Below are positions 51,395-63,898 of a DNA stretch of 64,000 bases, piece by piece. The stretch comes from Candidatus Zixiibacteriota bacterium. GTDB taxonomy: Bacteria; Zixibacteria; MSB-5A5; GN15; FEB-12. The stretch covers positions 186,001 to 250,000 of the forward strand of contig JAHOYZ010000007.1 of NCBI GenBank assembly GCA_019038695.1, written 5' to 3'. The stretch's first letter is position 1; each line of letters opens with the position of its first letter. A program made the position numbers and the translations under genes. The notes under the pieces are model-generated. The model saw nothing but the letters and a program-made list of their open reading frames with translations, was not told the origin of the DNA and searched no databases.

Positions 51395-54300
51395 TTACGC
51401 GGTGTTATCTATGAACCGTGTAAGTAGTATAACGAATTCCGTTCCAGTGTCAAGACTGGATCGAACGGTGATCTCTCCGCCGTATAGAGTGACTATTTTC
51501 TTGACGATGGCCAAACCCAGTCCGGTTCCGGTTCGAGGCTTGGTACTGAAAAACGCATCAAAGACTTTCGGGAGGTTCTCGTCAGGAATACCGGTTCCCG
51601 TATCTGTGATCCTGATCCGCATTCTCTCGTCATCCACTACCTCACCCGCAATGTTAAGGCGAGGCTGGTCAGCATCAGCCAACGCATCCAGGGCATTATT
51701 TATCAGATTGTTAAACACACTGTGGGCGTGTTCCTCACTACAAACACAGGACAGGTCATCAGGCAGATCGACCGATAGTTCGACGCCGATCTCCTCGATA
51801 CGAAAACGCAGGTCATCGATGATATTCTGCACCACGGACATGATATTAACCGATTCCTGCTTCTTACGGTTTTCCAAGCGGGCATATTCGGTGACCAATT
51901 CTGTCATACTGATGGCCCGCTCAACCGCGCTGGAGGTCATTCGTAGTAGTCTGGATTGCTTGTCTTTGTGATTCGTCGGTGCCCCTTTGATCTCGGTTTG
52001 AAGTTTCTCCAGGGCTACCATGGCCGGATAAAGAGAATTGTATATTTCGTGGGACACTCCTCCGGCGATCTCTCTAATCTGGTTGTACCGTACTTGCTCT
52101 GCCCGTCGAATCTCTTCCTCGGCTCGTTTGCGGTCGGTGATGTCGAGATGAATTCCGACCATTCTAACTGGTTCGTCGTTGCTATCCCGTTCGGTTACCT
52201 GACCACAATTGAGAACCCATTTCCACTCACCGCTTTTCGTTCTCATCCTGTGCTCTACTTCAAAAGCCGGTGTCTCCCCGGCAAAGTGCACATACGCAGC
52301 CCTTCTCAGAGCCGCCCTATCGTCCGGATGGACGAGCTCTCTGAAGGACTGAACGTCGCCGTCGATCTCCTCCAAGGTGTAGCCAAGCATTTCAGCCCAT
52401 TCGTTATTGCGAATGACTGCACGCGTTTTTAGATTAAGATCCCACAATCCAAGGCTGGCACCATGTAAAGCCATATCCAGACGCGTCTCGCTCTCTCGCA
52501 ATGCATCTTCGGCACGGTTGCGCTCGGTGATGTCGATAAGCGTGCTTTGCATACCTATGACTGACCCGTCAGCATCGGTCAAGGGCAACGAATTGTTCAA
52601 AACGGTGATGACTCGCCCGTCCTTTCGGACCAGTTGATGTTCATAGTTAACAATACGCTCACCGGAGTTAAGCTGGGCGTGAGCATCTATTACCAATGTT
52701 GGGTCTGCGTCAACATCGGGAATGCTCATACTCAGCAGCTCGCTCCTGGAATAGCCCAGAAGTTCAAGGCCGGCTTGGTTTGAGTCTATGAAGTTCTTGT
52801 CAAAATCAAAGATGTAAACGGCAGCAACAGATTCATCGAATATCCCTCGATATTTCTCTTCACTCGCCCACAGCGCTTCCTCGGCCCGTTTGCGTTCGGT
52901 AATATCAAGCACAGCACCAAACGCGCCGGTGTAGTTGCCATCATCGTCAAACTGGGGAGCCACCGAAACCATGATTGTCTTTGTGATTCCCTTAGCGGTA
53001 TTAATCCGAAGTTCATACGATGATGAAACTCCTGTCCGGCGCATAGCTGTCTGGTCTGTCAGAATTATACTCTGCTCGTCAGAAAGATAATCGGTGACTT
53101 GTCTCCCAACAAGGTCGTCAACGGAGTCCTCATCGAAAATGTCAGCCATAGCCGGGTTGCAGAACTGAATAATCTCGTTCTCATCAACCTGAGCCAAACC
53201 TTCCACGACCGAGTTGAAGAGTTCGCGGTAGCGTACCTGTGACGCTTCAAGTCGATCACTTGCCTCTTTGCGTTCGGTCATATCTACAGCGACACCTCTG
53301 AGCCCAACCGTTTTGCCGTTGCGTACAATCGGATTGGTATATGTTAGAACGGGGAAAGTGTTGCCGTCCTTTCTCAGAGCGATGTATTCGTGGCCATCCG
53401 GAAGTTCGCCCCGCAGACGTTTCTGCATGTTAACCAGGAGTCTCTCGATCTCCTCGGGCATGAAAAGCTGCCGTACGTTAACCCCGGCCTCGACATCACT
53501 CTGGTCGTAACCATAAGATTCCAGTGCGCTACGATTAGCAAAGGTCACCTGACCGTGCGAGTTGAGTTCATAGACTGCCTGAGGCAGCAAATCGACCATT
53601 TCGCGGAATCTTTCCTCTGATGCTTCGAGAGCTTCCAGGGCGTGTTTTTGTGCCGTGATGTCGCGGGCAATGCCAACTATAGCTATTGGTTTGCCATCCT
53701 CATCCGAGATTAGCGAACAGGTCATGAAAGTGGGAAAGGTGGTACCATCCTTGCGGACATGCCCGATCTCTCCTTCGTAAGTCCCATCGCGAAACACATG
53801 TTCATTAAACGGAATAACTTCATCCACATTCTGCTGCGGTGTATGAAAAATGGAGAGGTGTTTACCGATCAATTCGTCCTGGCTGTAACCGTGGGCGCAT
53901 GCCCAGGAGACATTAACGAACTGGATATGGCCGTCCAGGTTGGCTATGGCGACTTCATCCATAGTCTGTTCAACCGCCTGACCCAGAAGATGCAATTGAG
54001 TCTCAGCTTCACGCCATTCGGTGATGTCTCGTACGATACCACTGATTGCTACGACATTTCCTTCTGCATCCCTTATCGGTGCCTGGATAGTGTGAAAGAG
54101 ATGTGCTTCTTCGTTAATTGGCAAGATACGGATAGCAGTTGCTACTTCACCACTAAATGCAATGTTGTCTATCTCCCTTATTGTGGAAGCAGATTCTGGA
54201 TCAAAGAGTTCCTCTGGAGTGTGTCCCAGTAGCTCCGAGGCTGAACATCCAAAAAGGCGTTCCATGGCGGGGTTGACATATGTATAGCGGTGATCCATAT

Positions 54301-56794
54301 CTTTGCAGAAAATACAGTCTTGAGCCGAATTGGCGATGGAACGGTATCGCTCCTCACTCTCCCTCAGAGCTTCGTCGGCCTCCCTGCGGTCAGTAATATC
54401 ACGAACAACAACGGTGAAACCGGTCAACTCATGGTCCACACCAAAACGTGGGGATATCTTTGCATCAAACCACCGTTCCTTACCGCTGATTTCCAAGGGA
54501 TAATCGATCTCTTGTACTTCGTTCGTGTTGGATACCGCCTCAAGAGCACTCTCGAAGCTGTTTGCAACATCTGCCGGCAGTATCTCCTTGTAAGATTTCC
54601 CCAGAAAAACTTCGGGGGGCGCATACAAACCACTAGCCTTCTCAGGCTGATGGTATTCCACAAAAACACCCTCCTTATCAATCACGAATACCAGATCGTC
54701 CATTGAAGACAAGATTGATTCAAATCGGGATACGCTGTGCTGCAGTTCTTTTTCCAGCACCTTGAGATCGGTGATATCATGAGCTATGACCAGTGCTGAG
54801 ACCACTCGACCAGAGTCATCACGGAAGGGTTGCAGATTAGTAGCATACCATCGCCACTGATCAGAAACCCACGTCAGTACATCAGTATTTGTCCCCTGTG
54901 CGAAGTCGATAACCCTTCGAACGCCTTCAACTTGCCGGTCAGCTACTTCCTTGGGGAAGACATCCCACATTGTTTTGCCCACCAGTTCATCGGGTGTCAG
55001 CCCCTTGGCTCTGGCAGCCAGTTCGTTTGCGAAAAGAAAATGACCAGTACGGTCAATAAGGGCAACTGTGGCCCCGGCATTTTCAACGAGAAGACGATAC
55101 TTCTCTTCGCTGGACCGAAGCTCCGCATTCAGAACCGACAACTCCGCCGTCCGTTCATCGACCCGGCGTTCCAACTTCTCCCGCGCCCCATCGACAGTAT
55201 CCTTCTGGGCTGAGATCAGCCTGTTCTTGCGCTTTATCCTGAACCAGGACATAACAAGCAGGATAATGACAACGGCCGTCGGCAACAATGCAACCATGGC
55301 CAATAATCCGGGACGGCGCAGAAAGACTGTGCTCCATTGTCTCTGCTCCAGCTCAAGAACATAGTGAACCAGCCCCCTATCTACGGAAAGCACCAGACTA
55401 AGTCTTCCCTCGGAGTGCTCCCTCATTCCGACAGATGATTCCCGTACCTGCGGCACTGCCTCAAGATGAAGCTGAGCCAAAAGATTCAGATTCCGGTCCA
55501 GAAGGAGCAGATTGTTATCACGGTTTGACAGCAGGATCTGGTGACGACCATTACCGAGGATATCGTCAACCGTCCAGAATTCGGCCTGCGAAGTCAACCT
55601 GGTTCTGCATTTGACGACGAATTTCTGATCATATACTACCAGCTGCTTATCGGAAAACAGCGTTAGAATCTCCGGTCTACCATCGTTGTCCACATCCGCC
55701 AGAGAACAGCTGTACATGATCGACTGCGGGATGTCTGCAACGCTGTCTATCAATTCCCCGGTTGTTGACAGAACCAGAAACGACTGGACAGGCTTCTCTG
55801 GGCTGTCTGTGTTCGGGGCAGTAGGCTCCGACAGGCGAGGAACAACGATCTCCGGCAAACCGTCACCATCGATATCTATAACCACCGGAAGTGCGCGGTC
55901 GAAAACGCCCCCAACCTCGTGTTGCCACATCAGCTCACCACTTCGATTAACTCCTACGACGTAAGCATGTTGGTCGTCCATTGTCGGCGACTCGGCGGCA
56001 TTCCCCTTTGATGTCAGACCAAACACAATCAAGGGGTCTTTCCCCATTCCATTTGGTTCCACGTAAACATTGGACCGAGAGATTATACCGGCATATGGCA
56101 CGCGCCAGAGAATTTCCTCACCAAGCGCATCAACACATAGTAGCTCGCGTGGATACAGATCATAACCGACATCAACCCCCACCAATAACTCAGCCAAGCC
56201 GTCTTTATCTATATCACAATGACCACAAATGATCCCCCGACCATCCCAATATCCGTTTCCGTTGCGGTCGTCTCCCACAACAAGCAGGAGGTGAGCTTTC
56301 CTCCCCTGCCGAGGGCTATAAATATCAAGCCACAGGGAATCGAGGTGAACGTAAATAAAAGCTACTTCGCACAACCCATCACCGTCCAAATCGAACGAAT
56401 AGTCATACGAGATACTGGCTGCTTTCACGTTGTAATGACTGATGGCTTTTCGTTTTGCAAAATCGTCATAGAACACGATCGCCGTGATGGTATCGTCGGG
56501 CTTCCAGTTGTTCTGAATGTGGTAGTTGATTGAGGAAGAGCCTGAGCAGTCGGCCAGGTGAACAATCTTGCTTCTGATCGACTCTCCCCTGCTTGATAGG
56601 TCAGATAATTTAGAACTGATAACAAAACGCCATGGGAGCAGGAGAGGATCGACGTCCGTATTATCCAGAAAAGTGTATTCCTCCTCTTCACTCGGCATAC
56701 AGGCGAGTGCAAGAGCCAACAGACACAAAGAGAGGATCACAATAATCCACGAAGAATAATAGCCGACAGAACGGCGACGTGATTCGTTCCGCAT
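51395..56794 (-). CDS. Giant sensor kinase: FG-GAP propeller sensor, eight PAS domains, histidine kinase
   Basis: 1799 residues. An N-terminal signal/anchor (about 14-32, ending LALALAC, possibly a lipobox) leads to a periplasmic region (33-492). This region has FG-GAP-like calcium motifs: FDLDGDGLCEVAF, CDIDKDGLAELLV, IDIDGDGLPEIVV and VDNDGRPEILTL, plus a weaker fifth. A second helix lies at about 493-518, then a coiled coil. Eight PAS units follow, each closed by a D-I/M-T motif (HDITDLK, RDITDRR, RDITEWR, RDITAQK, VDMTERK, LDITERK, IDITERN, LDITDRK). HisKA has His in GGVSHEIYNSLYP, and the HATPase has NNLINNALDALAD, TDTGTGIPDE and TGTGLGLAIVKK. It is encoded 14 nt before the NtrC-type gene. 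The signal sensed is unknown. Confidence 0.93.
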   Translation of the reverse strand: MRNESRRRSVGYYSSWIIVILSLCLLALALACMPSEEEEYTFLDNTDVDPLLLPWRFVISSKLSDLSSRGESIRSKIVHLADCSGSSSINYHIQNNWKPDDTITAIVFYDDFAKRKAISHYNVKAASISYDYSFDLDGDGLCEVAFIYVHLDSLWLDIYSPRQGRKAHLLLVVGDDRNGNGYWDGRGIICGHCDIDKDGLAELLVGVDVGYDLYPRELLCVDALGEEILWRVPYAGIISRSNVYVEPNGMGKDPLIVFGLTSKGNAAESPTMDDQHAYVVGVNRSGELMWQHEVGGVFDRALPVVIDIDGDGLPEIVVPRLSEPTAPNTDSPEKPVQSFLVLSTTGELIDSVADIPQSIMYSCSLADVDNDGRPEILTLFSDKQLVVYDQKFVVKCRTRLTSQAEFWTVDDILGNGRHQILLSNRDNNLLLLDRNLNLLAQLHLEAVPQVRESSVGMREHSEGRLSLVLSVDRGLVHYVLELEQRQWSTVFLRRPGLLAMVALLPTAVVIILLVMSWFRIKRKNRLISAQKDTVDGAREKLERRVDERTAELSVLNAELRSSEEKYRLLVENAGATVALIDRTGHFLFANELAARAKGLTPDELVGKTMWDVFPKEVADRQVEGVRRVIDFAQGTNTDVLTWVSDQWRWYATNLQPFRDDSGRVVSALVIAHDITDLKVLEKELQHSVSRFESILSSMDDLVFVIDKEGVFVEYHQPEKASGLYAPPEVFLGKSYKEILPADVANSFESALEAVSNTNEVQEIDYPLEISGKERWFDAKISPRFGVDHELTGFTVVVRDITDRREADEALRESEERYRSIANSAQDCIFCKDMDHRYTYVNPAMERLFGCSASELLGHTPEELFDPESASTIREIDNIAFSGEVATAIRILPINEEAHLFHTIQAPIRDAEGNVVAISGIVRDITEWREAETQLHLLGQAVEQTMDEVAIANLDGHIQFVNVSWACAHGYSQDELIGKHLSIFHTPQQNVDEVIPFNEHVFRDGTYEGEIGHVRKDGTTFPTFMTCSLISDEDGKPIAIVGIARDITAQKHALEALEASEERFREMVDLLPQAVYELNSHGQVTFANRSALESYGYDQSDVEAGVNVRQLFMPEEIERLLVNMQKRLRGELPDGHEYIALRKDGNTFPVLTYTNPIVRNGKTVGLRGVAVDMTERKEASDRLEASQVRYRELFNSVVEGLAQVDENEIIQFCNPAMADIFDEDSVDDLVGRQVTDYLSDEQSIILTDQTAMRRTGVSSSYELRINTAKGITKTIMVSVAPQFDDDGNYTGAFGAVLDITERKRAEEALWASEEKYRGIFDESVAAVYIFDFDKNFIDSNQAGLELLGYSRSELLSMSIPDVDADPTLVIDAHAQLNSGERIVNYEHQLVRKDGRVITVLNNSLPLTDADGSVIGMQSTLIDITERNRAEDALRESETRLDMALHGASLGLWDLNLKTRAVIRNNEWAEMLGYTLEEIDGDVQSFRELVHPDDRAALRRAAYVHFAGETPAFEVEHRMRTKSGEWKWVLNCGQVTERDSNDEPVRMVGIHLDITDRKRAEEEIRRAEQVRYNQIREIAGGVSHEIYNSLYPAMVALEKLQTEIKGAPTNHKDKQSRLLRMTSSAVERAISMTELVTEYARLENRKKQESVNIMSVVQNIIDDLRFRIEEIGVELSVDLPDDLSCVCSEEHAHSVFNNLINNALDALADADQPRLNIAGEVVDDERMRIRITDTGTGIPDENLPKVFDAFFSTKPRTGTGLGLAIVKKIVTLYGGEITVRSSLDTGTEFVILLTRFIDNTA

Positions 56795-57270: not shown

Positions 57271-59670
57271 ATGTGCCCGAAATACAAGGTAGTTGCACGA
57301 TTGGCAATTGTACTGATTCTGAATCTTTTGTGTTCCGTATCTACAATTGAGGCCGAGCCGATAATCGCTGACCATGTGGCGGTCACTCAGTTTGATAATA
57401 TTCCCACTGACACGATTGTCGCCATAGGATCCAACTTCAATATCTACTACGTACATACATCTCACGGCAGCCAAATAGTGACCGGTATTGACATGGTGGA
57501 GATCGAAGATCCAACATACGATCCTCCTCCTTTCTACAGACCCGGTGATGACCTCGGACATAATGGTGACACTTCCTGGGTACCGAGTACTCGTGTCTAT
57601 CTTAACAACCACGCCGAATGCAATATGGCTATGTTCTCCTGGTGTGGGGGATGTTCGGACAATACCGTCGAAGGGATCAACATCTATCTGAATAAGATGG
57701 ATGAACTCGAAGCGGATTATCCTTCGGTGCAGTTTATATATATGACGGGGCACCTTGACGGAACCGGGACAGGCGGTAACTTGTACGCATGCAACAACCA
57801 GATCAGAGACTACTGCACAACCAACGACAAAGTGTTGTTTGACTTTGCCGACATAGAAAGTTGGGACCCTGACGGCAATTACTATCCCGACGAAACCGAC
57901 GCCTGTAACTGGTGCAATGATTGGTGCGCTACTCACACATGTCCCAGCTGCGGCAGTTGTGCCCACTCACATTGTTTCAATTGTTATCTCAAAGGGAAAG
58001 CATGGTGGTGGATGATGGCCCGTGTTTCCGGGTGGTCGCCATCGCAAGACCCTATCCCTCATATAGTTACAACATTACCTACAGTCAACGAGCTTAATGT
58101 ATCCAAGAACTCTGACATTACGGTGACGTTCGATCATGACATGGACGCTGCCACCATAGGCAGCCCTTCCTTTGTGGTCGCAGGTCAATTCACCGGCCTG
58201 CATAACGGTTCCTATAGCTTTGCAGGACCGCCTGCGAACCGGGCGACGTTTGTCCCGGCCGTGCCGTTTGCCGTAGGTGAGATTGTGACGGTTGTTATAA
58301 CCACCGGAATCGAATCCAATGAGAACATCCCCCTCGACAGCAGCTACACCTGGTCGTTTACGGTTGAGGTGGAGGCCGGCACCGGCCTCTTTAGTCCCGG
58401 CGCAAATCACAGCGTGGTAGAGTATCCGCTGGCCATGATTGCGGCCGATCTCGACGGAGATAACTATGTCGATCTCGCCGTGGTCGGTTCCGGTAATGTT
58501 TCGGTCTTGATGAACGGCGGCGACGGTTCCTTTTACGATGAGGTTGTCTATCCGGTGGGTCAGTGGCCCTTCGGGATATGCGCTGCTGATTTCGATTTGG
58601 ATGGTCACATCGACCTGGCCACGGTCAACGAAACCACCGAGCTGCAGGTCTATGTCTCGATCCTGATGAACAATAGTGACGGCACTTTCGCCTCGTTCAT
58701 GAATTATGTGGCCGGGACGACAGGCGGCCAGCCGGTCTCGATCGCGGCCGCCGATCTCAATGGCGACGGCTATCCTGACCTGGCCACGGCCAACAATGGG
58801 GACAACACTGTGTCAGTGCTGTCGGGCGTCGGTGATGGTAGTTTCTCTATTTTTACCGAGTATGCTGTTGGCCCGGGACCAGGCGTTATACGAGCCGCCG
58901 ATATTGATAACGATGCTGATATTGATCTGATGGTTGGCAACATCTACACCAACAGTTTTTCCGTTTTGCTCAACAATCGTTATGGCACTTTCGCTCCGCA
59001 CACAACCTACGCTTGCTACGATCATCCGCGCTCAATCGTAGTAGCCGATTTCGACGGCGATTCGTATCTTGATATCGCCACCGCCAGCGAAGACGGAGAG
59101 TACATGGGTTTCCTTTCGGTTGTCCCTAATCTGGGCGATGGCACCTTTGGCTCCTTCGCGAGCAAATACCTGGGGTACAGTATGGGCCTGTCGATATGTG
59201 CTGCTGATCTTGACAACGAGGGCACTCTTGATCTGGCCGTGACGTTGGACTACGACGGGCTCGACATCCTCTTAAACAACGGGTATGGATCGTTTGGAAC
59301 CTATACCGATTACACCGTCGGCTCCCACCCGGCAGCGTTGATTGCGGCCGACCTGGATGGTGACGGTGATATCGATCTGGCCACAGCTAATCAGTACGAC
59401 GCCAATGTGACGGTGTTGTACAATCAGAATCCTGCTTGCTGTGAAAATCGCGGAAACGTGGATCATAACAATGGTACTGGTGAACCAATCGACATTGCCG
59501 ATTTGACATACCTTGTGAGTTACCTCTTTAGATCCGGTCCCCCTCCTCCCTGTGAAGAGGAAGGCAACATTGACGGAATAATCGATACTGGCGGACCGAT
59601 AGATATCGCTGACTTGACGTACCTTGTGGCGTACCTCTTCACAGGCGGTGCTACACCGCCTGCGTGTTAG
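57271..59670 (+). CDS. Secreted Cys-rich/Ig-like/FG-GAP protein with dockerin-like tail
   Basis: 799 residues. Signal peptide to about 29. Residues 30-250 form a domain I do not recognise, with YYVHTSHGSQIVTGIDM and FIYMTGHLDGTGTG. It then has a Cys-rich stretch of about 28 residues (CNWCNDWCATHTC, CPSCGSCAHSHCFNC). Its HTSHGS motif recalls SGNH-type hydrolases, which is weak evidence only. An Ig-like Big_5 domain follows (about 262-370: SKNSDITVTFDHDMD), then about seven FG-GAP/VCBS repeats (LDGDNYVDLAVVG, LNGDGYPDLATAN, FDGDSYLDIATAS, LDGDGDIDLATAN). The C-terminus has two dockerin-like units built on PIDIADLTYLV. Probably surface-attached or released. Confidence 0.82.
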   Translation: MCPKYKVVARLAIVLILNLLCSVSTIEAEPIIADHVAVTQFDNIPTDTIVAIGSNFNIYYVHTSHGSQIVTGIDMVEIEDPTYDPPPFYRPGDDLGHNGDTSWVPSTRVYLNNHAECNMAMFSWCGGCSDNTVEGINIYLNKMDELEADYPSVQFIYMTGHLDGTGTGGNLYACNNQIRDYCTTNDKVLFDFADIESWDPDGNYYPDETDACNWCNDWCATHTCPSCGSCAHSHCFNCYLKGKAWWWMMARVSGWSPSQDPIPHIVTTLPTVNELNVSKNSDITVTFDHDMDAATIGSPSFVVAGQFTGLHNGSYSFAGPPANRATFVPAVPFAVGEIVTVVITTGIESNENIPLDSSYTWSFTVEVEAGTGLFSPGANHSVVEYPLAMIAADLDGDNYVDLAVVGSGNVSVLMNGGDGSFYDEVVYPVGQWPFGICAADFDLDGHIDLATVNETTELQVYVSILMNNSDGTFASFMNYVAGTTGGQPVSIAAADLNGDGYPDLATANNGDNTVSVLSGVGDGSFSIFTEYAVGPGPGVIRAADIDNDADIDLMVGNIYTNSFSVLLNNRYGTFAPHTTYACYDHPRSIVVADFDGDSYLDIATASEDGEYMGFLSVVPNLGDGTFGSFASKYLGYSMGLSICAADLDNEGTLDLAVTLDYDGLDILLNNGYGSFGTYTDYTVGSHPAALIAADLDGDGDIDLATANQYDANVTVLYNQNPACCENRGNVDHNNGTGEPIDIADLTYLVSYLFRSGPPPPCEEEGNIDGIIDTGGPIDIADLTYLVAYLFTGGATPPAC

Positions 59671-59700: not shown

Positions 59701-59729
59701 TTGCGTAAGAACGTACAATTGCCTATACT
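59701..59729 (+). promoter_or_regulatory. Sigma-70-type promoter of the ABC-F gene
   Basis: -35 TTGCGT (59701-59706, 3 of 6), 17-nt spacer, -10 TATACT (59724-59729, 5 of 6). The predicted start near 59736 lies just before a three-codon ORF. Confidence 0.5.
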
Positions 59730-59735
59730 GTCGAC

Positions 59736-59892
59736 TTAACCAAGGAGAACCGGTGAACGACTAAGCTCCTACAGCCGCGTTGCGGCATAACCTGCACGGC
59801 GACAAAACATCGCCACTCCAATCTTATCGTTTGGAACGCCTGCCCGAGGGTACGCATTGATACGACCCGAGCAGGCAAAGCCGGGAGCTATT
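59736..59892 (+). promoter_or_regulatory. Structured leader with a three-codon ORF, upstream of ABC-F
   Basis: A strong AAGGAG (59742-59747) precedes GTG-AAC-GAC-TAA (59753-59764). Three stem-loops follow: GCCGC/GCGGC (59774-59786), GGCGA/TCGCC (59798-59814), and GCCTGC/GCAGGC with inner GGGT/ACCC (59838-59876). The last ends 5 nt before the GGGAG site of the ABC-F gene. ABC-F resistance genes in Firmicutes are often controlled by ribosome-mediated attenuation on short leader ORFs. No intrinsic terminator with a T-run is visible, so a translational switch is also possible. Confidence 0.45.
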
Positions 59893-61431
59893 ATGTCTTC
59901 AAGACCACTGGTAAATATTAAGAATCTCTCCGTTTCGTTTCTCGAAAAAGTCATTATTGACAAGCTGTCCTTTTCAATAGGTCGGGGTGAAGTAGTAGCG
60001 TTGATCGGCGCCAACGGTTGCGGCAAGACGACCCTGTTGGAACTTGTCAGTCATACTTATGCGCAGAACCGTGACTACCTGAATCAATTCGAACTGCGAG
60101 TCAAAGGCGATCTGAACCTGGCGACAGGAATCGGATTGAGTTACCTGCCACAAATGGTGAAAAGTGACATCCCTGAGATTGATTACTCTCTCGCTGCAAT
60201 GTTTGAACGTCTGGCTGAGTCATTTGGACTGCATCAGAGATCATCCGACGGCGACACCCTCTCAGACGGACAGATACAGAAAGAGGCAATTGTGGTGGCA
60301 CTAGTGTCCGACGCCGACCTGCTGCTTCTGGACGAGCCGACCAACTATCTCGACATAGCCGGTATTACCGCCTTTGAAGAACAGATTAAACTGCTGCGGC
60401 GGCGCGGTCGGGGGATACTACTAGTCTCGCATGATCGAACGCTTATCAACAACCTGGCCAACCGTACAATCTACATGGCTCGCAATGGTATTTTCCAAAC
60501 TGAGGGTGGATTCTCCGATGCCTGGTCGCTGGCGGGGATGGATTTTAACTCCAAACTGAAACAGGCGCGGGTGATTCGCACTAAGATCGGTCGCCTTCAG
60601 AACGAAGTGCGACGCAAAATGAACTGGGCGGAGCAGAAGGAAAAGACGAAGACGGGATCCAAAAAGGATAAGGGGCATATCAGTCGCTTGGCCGCCAAAC
60701 TGGCGGCCCGTGCGCGCGCGGCAAGCCTGAAAGCTAGAAAAGAGATTGATCAACTCAAGAAGACCAAACCGATTATCCCTAAGAAACTGGTGCTGAGACT
60801 GCCGGAATACGAAGTTCGAAACCGCGAAGTGTTTTCACTTGCTGACGTGTCATTCTCCTATGGGGAAGCTCAGTCAGAAAACGGCGGGAACCTTCTTGAA
60901 GCAATCGATCTGGCAGCCACGACCAGCGACAAGTTGTGTTTGATGGGCACCAACGGAGCGGGCAAATCAACTTTGCTGTCCTTGATAATGGGACGACTGA
61001 AACCACTGTGTGGTACACGACGAATTAACGACGCCATCAAGCTGCGTCATCTTCCACAGGGACTAACCGGATTCTTTGATCAACCGACCCTGCTTGACAA
61101 CTTCCGCGATACCGGTAGCGATGAAACAACCGTGCGTTATCATCTGGGCGCGGCGTTGCTAAGAGGTGAGAAAGTCAACGAGCCGGTAACGAATTTTTCC
61201 TATGGTGAACTAGTACGCGCGGCGATTGTTAAGTGCATATTGCAGAAGGCGGAATTTCTGTTACTGGATGAACCAACTTCACATCTGGATATCGAATCGA
61301 TAGAAGTATTGGAACAACTTTTGATAGACTTCCCGGGAGGGTTTGTGATAATCAGCCATGACCGTTCATTTGTGGAGAACGTCTCGGACAAGTTGTATAC
61401 GCTCGATGGAGGGAGATTGAGGTTGGTGTGA
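59893..61431 (+). CDS. ABC-F family ATPase (ribosome-associated)
   Basis: 512 residues from the ATG at 59893, which has GGGAG 5 nt upstream; an earlier in-frame start at 59857 lies inside the leader hairpin. Two ABC domains, no membrane helices. First: Walker A GANGCGKTT, signature LSDGQIQKE (LSGGQ is usual), Walker B LLLLDEPTNYLDIAG. Second: GTNGAGKST, signature FSYGELVRA, LLLDEPTSHLDIES. The linker of about 80 residues is Lys/Arg-rich (RRKMNWAEQKEKTKTGSKKD). ABC-F proteins act on the ribosomal exit site in translation regulation or antibiotic protection. Subfamily is not clear; the diverged signatures are notable. Confidence 0.9.
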   Translation: MSSRPLVNIKNLSVSFLEKVIIDKLSFSIGRGEVVALIGANGCGKTTLLELVSHTYAQNRDYLNQFELRVKGDLNLATGIGLSYLPQMVKSDIPEIDYSLAAMFERLAESFGLHQRSSDGDTLSDGQIQKEAIVVALVSDADLLLLDEPTNYLDIAGITAFEEQIKLLRRRGRGILLVSHDRTLINNLANRTIYMARNGIFQTEGGFSDAWSLAGMDFNSKLKQARVIRTKIGRLQNEVRRKMNWAEQKEKTKTGSKKDKGHISRLAAKLAARARAASLKARKEIDQLKKTKPIIPKKLVLRLPEYEVRNREVFSLADVSFSYGEAQSENGGNLLEAIDLAATTSDKLCLMGTNGAGKSTLLSLIMGRLKPLCGTRRINDAIKLRHLPQGLTGFFDQPTLLDNFRDTGSDETTVRYHLGAALLRGEKVNEPVTNFSYGELVRAAIVKCILQKAEFLLLDEPTSHLDIESIEVLEQLLIDFPGGFVIISHDRSFVENVSDKLYTLDGGRLRLV

Positions 61432-62689: not shown

Positions 62690-63055
62690 ATGAAAATAAG
62701 ACATTTAAAGATTCAAGACGGGTTCACTCTACTCGAAGTGTTGATCTCCATGGTTATTCTCGGAATCGCGATACTGGTACTGCTGAACATGGCCATGGTG
62801 GCGGTTACCGGTAATGATTGGTCAAACCAAGCCACAACCGCGACCCAGGCTATTCAGCAAAAAATGGAGCAGCTCCGCAGTACAGCCAACCCGGTTAGCG
62901 GAATGGAAACTGTCGATGGTGTGAATCTATACTGGACCATTTCGAAGCCACAGAACCACTTGCGTAAAGTCTATCTATCAGCAATGTGGGAGGACATGAC
63001 CTCGGAATACAAGTACACTAATGTAACGGCCTTCATCAAGACCGATTCCATATAG
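62690..63055 (+). CDS. Type IV pilus minor pilin, PilV-like
   Basis: 121 residues. The prepilin peptidase site is DGFTLLEVL after an 11-residue basic leader, with cleavage after Gly and Glu at +5. A hydrophobic helix follows (LISMVILGIAILVLLNMAM). The globular part is short. Membrane-embedded pilin-like proteins of this size start pilus or pseudopilus assembly at the tip. It stands first in the operon, before PilW-like and PilX-like genes, 9 nt before the next gene. It could equally be a pseudopilin of a type II-like system. Confidence 0.85.
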   Translation: MKIRHLKIQDGFTLLEVLISMVILGIAILVLLNMAMVAVTGNDWSNQATTATQAIQQKMEQLRSTANPVSGMETVDGVNLYWTISKPQNHLRKVYLSAMWEDMTSEYKYTNVTAFIKTDSI

Positions 63056-63064
63056 AGGGACGAG

Positions 63065-63898
63065 ATGAAAAAACGAAATAACAGAATCGCGAATCAGCGC
63101 GGGACCTCGTTCCTCGAGGTTATGGTGGCACTGGCCATTATGGGTGTCATAACAGCAGCGATATTCAAGCTATACATAACCTCCCACAAGAATTACATGG
63201 CTCAGAATGAGGTGATCAACGTACAGCAAAGTGCTCGGGCGTCAATCGACGTACTAACTCGTCAAATTCGTATGGCGGGCTACGGTTTGCCGCTTGGTGT
63301 TCCAGCCATTACGTCGTCAAACACTAATCCTGACACAATCGCAATCTGCTACCGCAACAACGACTGCGATACATACCTCGCTGCTGCTATGCCCCAGCCT
63401 TCAGCCGAGTTGAAATGTGCAACTGATGTGTCCTGTTTCTCTGATGGCCAGTGGGTGTATATCTTTGAGCCAGATTCAGGAGGCGGCGAGTGGTTTGAAA
63501 TAACACATGTTCAGGCAGCAGCCAAGCACTTACAACACAATACCATGTCGTTGTCCAAGAAGTATGGCAAGGACGCCATTCTTATGTCCATGGTCTCAAT
63601 CAAGTTCTATGTGGACAACACCACAGATCCGGATCATCCGTATCTCATGATCGAGTTGCCGGGACAGGGACCGCAGATTTTCGCCGACAACATCATTGAT
63701 CTGCAATTTCAGTATCGGATGAAAAACGGTGTGGTGATGGATTCGATTATTGTCCCGGATGATGTTCGCGAGGTTCAACTAAGCCTTACCGGACGCTCAA
63801 TGTACGAGGATACCGACGTGGCTGACCTGGGCGAAGGGGATGGTTTCCGAAGACGTACATTTTCAACATCGGTATTTTTACGCAATGTTGGCATCTAA
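63065..63898 (+). CDS. Type IV pilus minor pilin, PilW-like
   Basis: 277 residues. Leader with RGTSFLEVMVALAIMGV, a prepilin site (G then TSFLE, with Glu at +5), then the helix. The globular part contains QQSARASIDVLTRQIRMAGYGLPLG, a pattern typical of PilW, and a C-terminal region with DNIIDLQFQYRMKNG and VQLSLTGRSMYED. Residues 85-140 have four Cys (YRNNDCDTYL, LKCATDVSCF) that could form disulphides. Part of the minor-pilin cluster. Confidence 0.85.
   Translation: MKKRNNRIANQRGTSFLEVMVALAIMGVITAAIFKLYITSHKNYMAQNEVINVQQSARASIDVLTRQIRMAGYGLPLGVPAITSSNTNPDTIAICYRNNDCDTYLAAAMPQPSAELKCATDVSCFSDGQWVYIFEPDSGGGEWFEITHVQAAAKHLQHNTMSLSKKYGKDAILMSMVSIKFYVDNTTDPDHPYLMIELPGQGPQIFADNIIDLQFQYRMKNGVVMDSIIVPDDVREVQLSLTGRSMYEDTDVADLGEGDGFRRRTFSTSVFLRNVGI

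Follow-up and report, generated by a model that had tools for sequence, protein, structure and literature searches.

The stretch of DNA analyzed here (the window, 64,000 nucleotides long and part of a 3.28-Mb genome of Candidatus Zixiibacteriota) contains a gene for a 512-residue ABC-F protein, preceded by a leader that includes an open reading frame of only three codons. The features of the leader and of the beginning of the gene, with the evidence by which each was assigned, are the following:

59701-59729, + strand: possible promoter, TTGCGT (weak -35), 17-nt spacer, TATACT (-10); read from the sequence
59742-59747, + strand: Shine-Dalgarno sequence (SD) AAGGAG of the mini-ORF; read from the sequence and counted by the mini-ORF rule
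59744-59755, + strand: 5' strand of the predicted outer helix; MFE
59753-59764, + strand: mini-ORF GTG AAC GAC TAA (fMet-Asn-Asp-stop); read from the sequence
59764-59770, + strand: candidate anti-Shine-Dalgarno sequence (anti-SD) AGCTCCT, overlapping the final base of the stop codon; MFE, detector and swap tests
59774-59786, + strand: internal hairpin 1 (GCCGC-GTT-GCGGC); MFE, not conserved
59798-59814, + strand: internal hairpin 2 (GGCGA...TCGCC); MFE, not conserved
59817-59835, + strand: small hairpin of the window leader
59838-59876, + strand: internal hairpin 3 (GCCTGC...GCAGGC); MFE, not conserved
59883-59889, + strand: ABC-F SD GGGAGCT, predicted to be masked by the anti-SD; MFE and detector
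59893-61431, + strand: ABC-F gene, 512 aa; ORF list, family models and relatives
59906-59912, + strand: coding segment CACTGGT (codons 5-7, PLV), able to pair with the start region of the mini-ORF; MFE and swap test

The start codon of the ABC-F gene is taken as the ATG at 59893, with GGGAG 5 nt ahead of it; the ORF list also offers a TTG at 59857, which was set aside because the relatives align from the methionine of this ATG. Judged by eye, the same part of the window also holds a histidine kinase-like protein of 1799 residues containing numerous PAS-like repeats and, at its N-terminus, a repeat domain (51395-56794, - strand), a secreted-looking repeat protein of 799 residues directly upstream of the leader, whose C-terminus carries a dockerin-like double repeat (IDIADLTYLV..YLF; 57271-59670, + strand), and two proteins resembling type IV pilins, their N-termini being prepilin-like (62690-63898, + strand).

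An earlier note on this DNA had pointed to a strong ribosome site and a minimal ORF (V-N-D-stop) ahead of the ABC-F gene, and both were confirmed, AAGGAG (59742-59747) being placed 5 nt ahead of the GTG-AAC-GAC-TAA frame at 59753-59764. The -10/-35 pair described there held in part: the -10 hexamer TATACT (59724-59729), which ends 23 nt before the start of the mini-ORF, stands, but the -35 hexamer TTGCGT (59701-59706) is weak. A strict promoter scan of the window leader, requiring at least four of six matches per hexamer, found no promoter, and this pair was missed because TTGCGT matches in three positions of six.

The MFE fold of the window leader, at -63.1 kcal/mol, is more stable than its shuffles, which average -47.2 (z -3.91), and none of the 200 shuffles folded as well. 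In this fold AGCTCCT (59764-59770) pairs with GGGAGCT (59883-59889) through six standard pairs and one G-T pair, enclosing all four hairpins; according to the model, the SD of the ABC-F gene is closed off by a strand that overlaps and follows the stop codon of the mini-ORF, a point absent from the earlier note. The outer helix joins the SD and start codon of the mini-ORF to codons 5-7 of the ABC-F gene and to some bases within its codons 11-13, its inner seven base pairs (59749-59755) being formed with 59906-59912 and its outer five with 59925-59929, and the mini-ORF's own SD is thus paired as well. The three stem-loops reported previously are present, accompanied by a fourth small one, but they differ among the 14 leaders folded and are not the conserved element. 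The total duplex energy between upstream and start regions, a measure that is weak per leader, is unremarkable in the window (z -0.51) and lies below z -2 in two of 19 leaders; as a group, the leaders differ from the controls (p 0.0005). Scans of the window gave no Rfam match at gathering scores and no tRNA or tmRNA, and a scan of its leader for terminator-like sites found none, in agreement with the previous statement that a T-run terminator is absent; among 15 leaders one has such a site.

That the gene product is an ABC-F protein is certain from its sequence: two ABC domains reside on one chain (PF00005 in two stretches), whole-length ABC-F models match, and no membrane family of transporters is found among its 20 Pfam matches. 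It is likely, though no more than that, to be of the antibiotic-resistance type. Among curated models the best is NF000355 for ribosomal-protection-like ABC-F proteins, whose 323 bits remain below the cut-off of 380, and this model also accepts the Uup- and EttA-like proteins of the same genome (L002 and L003) above cut-off. A profile search of solved structures places 8buu first (241 bits, listed as ExpZ), a structure deposited with the VmlR2 paper according to the excerpt of that source, followed by Uup (226 bits), and in a structural search with the single sequence YheS is the best match. In a tree, nine family members sit on a long stem apart from twelve comparison proteins (ten of these were scanned; L031 and L032 are ECF-transporter ATPases). 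The family occurs in 20 of 132 genomes of Candidatus Zixiibacteriota (E up to 1e-100) with one match each, and is thus accessory and single-copy; a profile search at E up to 1e-75 over 129 genomes of the phylum recovers the same 20. Outside the phylum, no family match was obtained at E 1e-70 in 15 genomes that had been reached by way of named loci, and the best outside matches were at E 3e-60 in 149 genomes of one phylum and at 8e-74 in 201 of another. Among the genomes searched, the family was found by sequence similarity in this phylum only. A scan of a genome collection, which retrieved one Zixibacteria relative, carries little weight for the distribution. In a genome of the same genus (G011, contig C91; L011/L028) the ABC-F match starts at residue 165 and abuts an unrelated upstream gene; the missing N-terminal part was searched for in G011 and not found, and the loss of the start may be either a real truncation or an assembly join.

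For comparison of the leaders, the upstream DNA of 19 family members, the window's included, was used, with L011 left out as truncated. Four of them (L020, L021, L022, and L024) were excluded from the counts on 15 leaders, because a long upstream ORF ending 32-74 nt before the gene leaves no room for a leader. When the window leader DNA was used as query over 129 genomes, the sole match was this leader itself, and conservation is therefore one of architecture only. The rules for the leaders were drawn up after the leaders had been inspected. By the mini-ORF rule (a start codon ATG, GTG, or TTG with an SD 4-9 nt ahead of it, no more than two codons after the start, and a position 90-210 nt upstream of the gene), a mini-ORF of up to three codons with SD is present in nine of 15 leaders, against nine of 159 control genes from the window's contig and 123 of 3000 shuffles. 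An ATG followed directly by a stop codon and preceded by an SD is present in five of 15 leaders (L013, L016, L017, L018, and L023), in none of the 159 controls and in 14 of 3000 shuffles; when any start codon is allowed, the counts are 5/15 and 2/159, and when the SD is not required for ATG-stop, they are 6/15 and 13/159. The four excluded relatives have no mini-ORF by the rule, and their inclusion changes the counts to 9/19 and, for ATG-stop, 5/19. Six leaders fail the rule (L012, L014, L015, L019, L025, and L026); inspection by eye found ATG-AGG-TAA in L012, ATG-TAA in L025, and in L019 a seven-codon ORF that contains its anti-SD. The peptides encoded are M-N-D in the window, M-R in L009, M-R-K in L010, and M-R-I in L027 (TTG-AGA-ATA), and L017 has two overlapping frames, M-N-M or ATG-stop. 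In L013 and L016, a longer frame starting upstream in the same phase is possible. The clade of the window protein (L001, L009, L010, L017, and L027; support 100/100) is uniform in this respect: each of the five members combines a mini-ORF of up to three codons with an anti-SD that fits its own SD. Conservation of the mini-ORF among relatives, which the earlier note had put forward as a check, is thus seen in kind and place (nine of 15 leaders), and the sequence itself is not kept.

Longer leader ORFs were also noticed. About 200 nt upstream of the ABC-F gene, L015 shows by eye a possible 11-codon ORF (TTG GTT TGG CGG ...) instead of a mini-ORF, near a promoter-like TTTACA-17-TATACT and a hairpin GTAAGGTGGT/ACCACCTTAC. 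L128, L136, and L137, from the phylum of G142, share a different and longer leader ORF (GGAGTTA[CT]ACCA ATG [AG]AAAT[CT]A...) about 70 nt upstream of the ABC-F start, and GATGATC within that of L128 and L136 is complementary to GATCATC beside the ribosome site of the gene.

Promoter-like sequences accompany the mini-ORFs. A sigma-70-like pair with at least nine of 12 matches, at most 80 nt upstream of the mini-ORF, is present in nine of 14 leaders, against 19 of 160 control genes and 193 of 1400 shuffles, and in those nine leaders the -10 element ends 20-31 nt before the mini-ORF. The window is outside the nine, its TTGCGT/TATACT pair matching in eight of 12 positions; for the window, the promoter comparison picked another pair with the same 8/12 score.

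Long-range pairing between mini-ORF and gene was studied in two ways. A detector combining a mini-ORF with a helix of at least six base pairs to the SD of the gene responds in six of 19 leaders (seven if up to six codons are allowed), in two of 159 genes of the same contig and in 15 of 1900 leader shuffles. It did not respond at any of 17 loci from outside the phylum (one locus having no candidate start and five further matches no locus), nor at any of 79 loci from the genome-collection scan, of which one had no candidate start and many encode ABC transporters, not ABC-F proteins. The helices between mini-ORF and SD are genome-specific yet matched: AGCTCCT/GGGAGCT, ACTTCCAAA/TTTGGGAGT, ACACCTC/GAGGTGT, CATGTAAGCTTC/GGAGCTTACATG, and AACTCCCAT/ATGGGAGTT. 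The second approach, a swap test, is an alignment-free test for covariation in which each mini-ORF arm is paired with the start region of every genome (20,000 permutations). With 14 leaders (L026 was excluded, as no mini-ORF was found, and the mini-ORFs of L012, L014, L015, L019, and L025 were chosen by eye), native pairs are better than swapped ones, whether the SD region is considered (p 0.00015), the first codons (p 0.00005), or the two together (p 0.00005). The leader's own pair is the best of its row for the SD in five of 14 (L001, L013, L016, L017, and L027) and for the first codons in another five (L010, L012, L014, L023, and L025), and this split suggests masking by two routes, through the SD or through the first codons. 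At the SD, the own pairs of L014, L015, and L025 are weaker than the row mean, and at the first codons the same holds for L001 and L027; for the window, the coding-sequence pairing taken alone has -11.5 against a row mean of -12.6, such pairing being supported over the 14 leaders and not for the window singly. With the nine leaders chosen by rule, the SD-region test gives p 0.0002 at the mini-ORF, 0.0014 at 15 nt upstream, and values above 0.12 at eight other offsets between -90 and +45, and by this sequence comparison the SD-region signal is confined to the mini-ORF and the 15 nt ahead of it. The corresponding values for the start region as a whole are 0.0006 at the mini-ORF, 0.0002 at -15, 0.006 at +15, 0.049 at +45, and 0.059 at -30, with the remaining five offsets all above 0.12. 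Structure prediction across relatives, also proposed previously, has a divided outcome: to judge from these comparisons, what the leaders conserve is a long-range pairing of the mini-ORF strand with the region where ABC-F translation starts, and not the internal hairpins, which differ among leaders.

The effect of a ribosome on this pairing was computed by imposing a ribosome footprint that spans -14 to +15 relative to the start of the mini-ORF and calculating the cost of opening the ABC-F start region in 13 leaders (L015 and L026 were left out). A footprint on the mini-ORF start is predicted to make opening cheaper by 3.9 kcal/mol on average, and one placed at least 30 nt downstream by 0.4 (Wilcoxon p 0.0017). 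Relief in the window is modest, 2.7 kcal/mol at the start codon and 5.3 at +24, and a cruder measure of accessibility does not change there (0.32 to 0.31); the calculation predicts no relief in three of the 13 leaders (L013, L014, and L018). Only in L017 is the start codon itself the best position, the optimum lying 6-60 nt downstream of the start elsewhere, and therefore a ribosome at the stop codon or just past it would serve equally or better. At the level of prediction and comparison only, the leader RNA thus holds the SD of the ABC-F gene in a pairing from which a ribosome bound at the uORF would free it.

Taken as a whole, the leader is probably a translation attenuator, in which a ribosome held by a drug on the mini-ORF would free the start site of the ABC-F gene; the transcription start, the stalling, the inducing drugs, and the resistance function are putative parts of this reading, which was weighed slightly lower because the best relief usually lies downstream of the start codon. 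It draws on the mini-ORF, its complementarity to the gene, conservation in kind, the specificity of native pairs, and the predicted relief, all of them results of computation. The previous description as an attenuator-like leader of the kind known from ABC-F genes of Firmicutes is supported in this sense (mini-ORF in nine of 15 leaders), and control at translation, which it had considered, appears most likely, with a conserved pairing that targets the gene's SD and start region and with one leader of 15 showing a terminator-like site. Without drug, ribosomes on the mini-ORF would terminate after one to three codons and depart, the strand around or just after the mini-ORF would then pair with the SD and/or the first codons of the ABC-F gene, and the gene would scarcely be translated. 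A drug that holds ribosomes at start codons, of the pleuromutilin, lincosamide, streptogramin A, or tetracycline type, would park a ribosome on the mini-ORF, and its footprint, extending about 16 nt beyond the start codon, would cover most of the anti-SD. The ABC-F start site would then open and a ribosome-protection-like ABC-F protein would be made. A ribosome stuck on the tiny frame would, in short, probably turn the ABC-F gene on. With a start-stop ORF, such a drug would have to act by preventing either release or the first event at the A site.

Such a reading has precedents, described here as far as the excerpts of the respective papers go. The vmlR leader of Bacillus subtilis, like that of the window, has a three-codon uORF (MIN) with its own SD and a sequestered SD of the gene, and is induced by lincomycin and retapamulin, two drugs that arrest ribosomes at initiation; a 30S toeprint is located 16 nt 3' of the A in the start codon of the uORF, and a working uORF variant from another Bacillus is MRK, the same as in L010 (PMC9226507). 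With this geometry, the footprint in the window would reach about 59769 and cover most of 59764-59770. The vmlR leader differs in employing an intrinsic terminator/antiterminator and NusG pausing, whereas the window has no terminator and one of 15 leaders has a terminator-like site, and in masking the SD by a separate hairpin, SL-4, whereas in Candidatus Zixiibacteriota this would be done by a strand at the mini-ORF itself (PMC9226507). The cplR leader of Clostridioides difficile has a uORF (MRI; consensus MR[I/M]) and an anti-SD element, and L027 likewise encodes M-R-I; when the polyU is mutated, translational attenuation alone still represses (PMC10201436). In contrast to the window, where no terminator was seen, and to the five leaders with ATG-stop, the SD of cplR lies inside a terminator hairpin, and phylum and protein family are different as well (PMC10201436). 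For both vmlR and cplR, induction by lincomycin and retapamulin depends on the uORF, probably through stalling at the start codon of three-codon uORFs (PMC9226507, PMC10201436, PMC12121999). In Streptomyces, the leaders of are5sc and tiaA resemble that of the window in placing a short uORF, which reads MLV in are5sc, ahead of an ABC-F gene; drugs of the lincosamide, streptogramin A, and pleuromutilin classes cause stalling at its start codon, but these leaders are modelled as transcription attenuation (PMC12421871). In Escherichia coli, toiL-topAI shares with the present proposal the release of an SD by a ribosome stalled at a uORF start, in this case by tetracycline and retapamulin, and the long-range pairing between uORF and SD; it differs in its longer uORF (at least seven codons), in several stall sites, and in being a toxin-antitoxin operon (PMC12121999).

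In a more far-reaching form, which we put forward tentatively, the sensor is at its limit: an ATG-stop ORF without elongation codon would read only whether the initiating ribosome clears the start codon, independent of any leader peptide, while the masking strand would pair with the SD or the first codons and no terminator would take part. An attenuator of similar build might respond to another signal, namely stress of initiation or termination (slow start-stop release, low release factor, starvation, or cold), with the ABC-F protein as a housekeeping-like translation factor. In start-stop ORFs initiation is indeed followed by release and not by peptide bond formation, and the protein is not clearly a resistance ABC-F, given its score below the NF000355 cut-off and YheS as best structural match of the single sequence. 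However, the patchy single-copy spread over 20 of 132 genomes speaks against housekeeping, the profile's best structure is 8buu, though with Uup close behind, and the uORF peptides M-R-I and M-R-K are identical to that of cplR and to that of a vmlR variant; this alternative seems rather unlikely.

Transcription attenuation, or Rho-dependent termination coupled to translation of the mini-ORF, with SD pairing in a secondary role, would agree with the literature, in whose excerpts known ABC-F leaders chiefly figure as transcription attenuators, vmlR and cplR having SD masking in addition, and a Gram-negative uORF with presumed Rho control is on record. We consider it improbable, as an intrinsic-terminator-like site is present in L023 alone among 15 leaders, the window having none, compared with 15 of 160 control genes, which does not amount to a terminator of the vmlR/cplR type, and the conserved pairing targets the SD and the start region. 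Very improbable is a merely structured 5' UTR, constitutive or tuned by protein or temperature, with an untranslated mini-ORF: a masked SD would by itself give low expression and the mini-ORF's own SD is paired in the MFE fold of the window, but SD-bearing mini-ORFs are strongly enriched in the leaders and the pairing is anchored on them. Chance is scarcely credible, for although short ORFs and complementary hexamers are frequent, SD complements recur by chance and the rules followed inspection of the leaders, it is made unlikely by the mini-ORF counts and the nine-leader swap test as well as by the detector (6/19 leaders against 2/159 controls and 15/1900 shuffles) and the swap tests in general.

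For the preferred reading, a translation attenuator, the claim that a version in this group would be new agrees with the literature, as no ABC-F leader of this kind from Candidatus Zixiibacteriota was found among the best-ranked matches in the open-licence literature. Within the same scope, no start-stop ORF was found as a bacterial drug sensor: reports on AUG-stop mainly concern plants or other eukaryotes, and the excerpt of PMC9841429 treats start-stop overlaps in E. coli initiation, but in a different sense. As far as the partial sources go, ribosome-mediated control of ABC-F genes is on record for Gram-positives (Bacillus, Listeria, staphylococci, streptococci, clostridia, and Streptomyces). 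Candidatus Zixiibacteriota has an envelope of the Gram-negative type, and the leaders described here would extend such control from Gram-positives to a distant uncultured phylum. Their architecture suggests that the peptide sequence is dispensable and that a start-stop ORF may suffice as sensor of drugs trapping ribosomes at start codons. From such a sensor one would gain a minimal rule for designing inducible translation switches and a clue to the natural antibiotics encountered by these bacteria.
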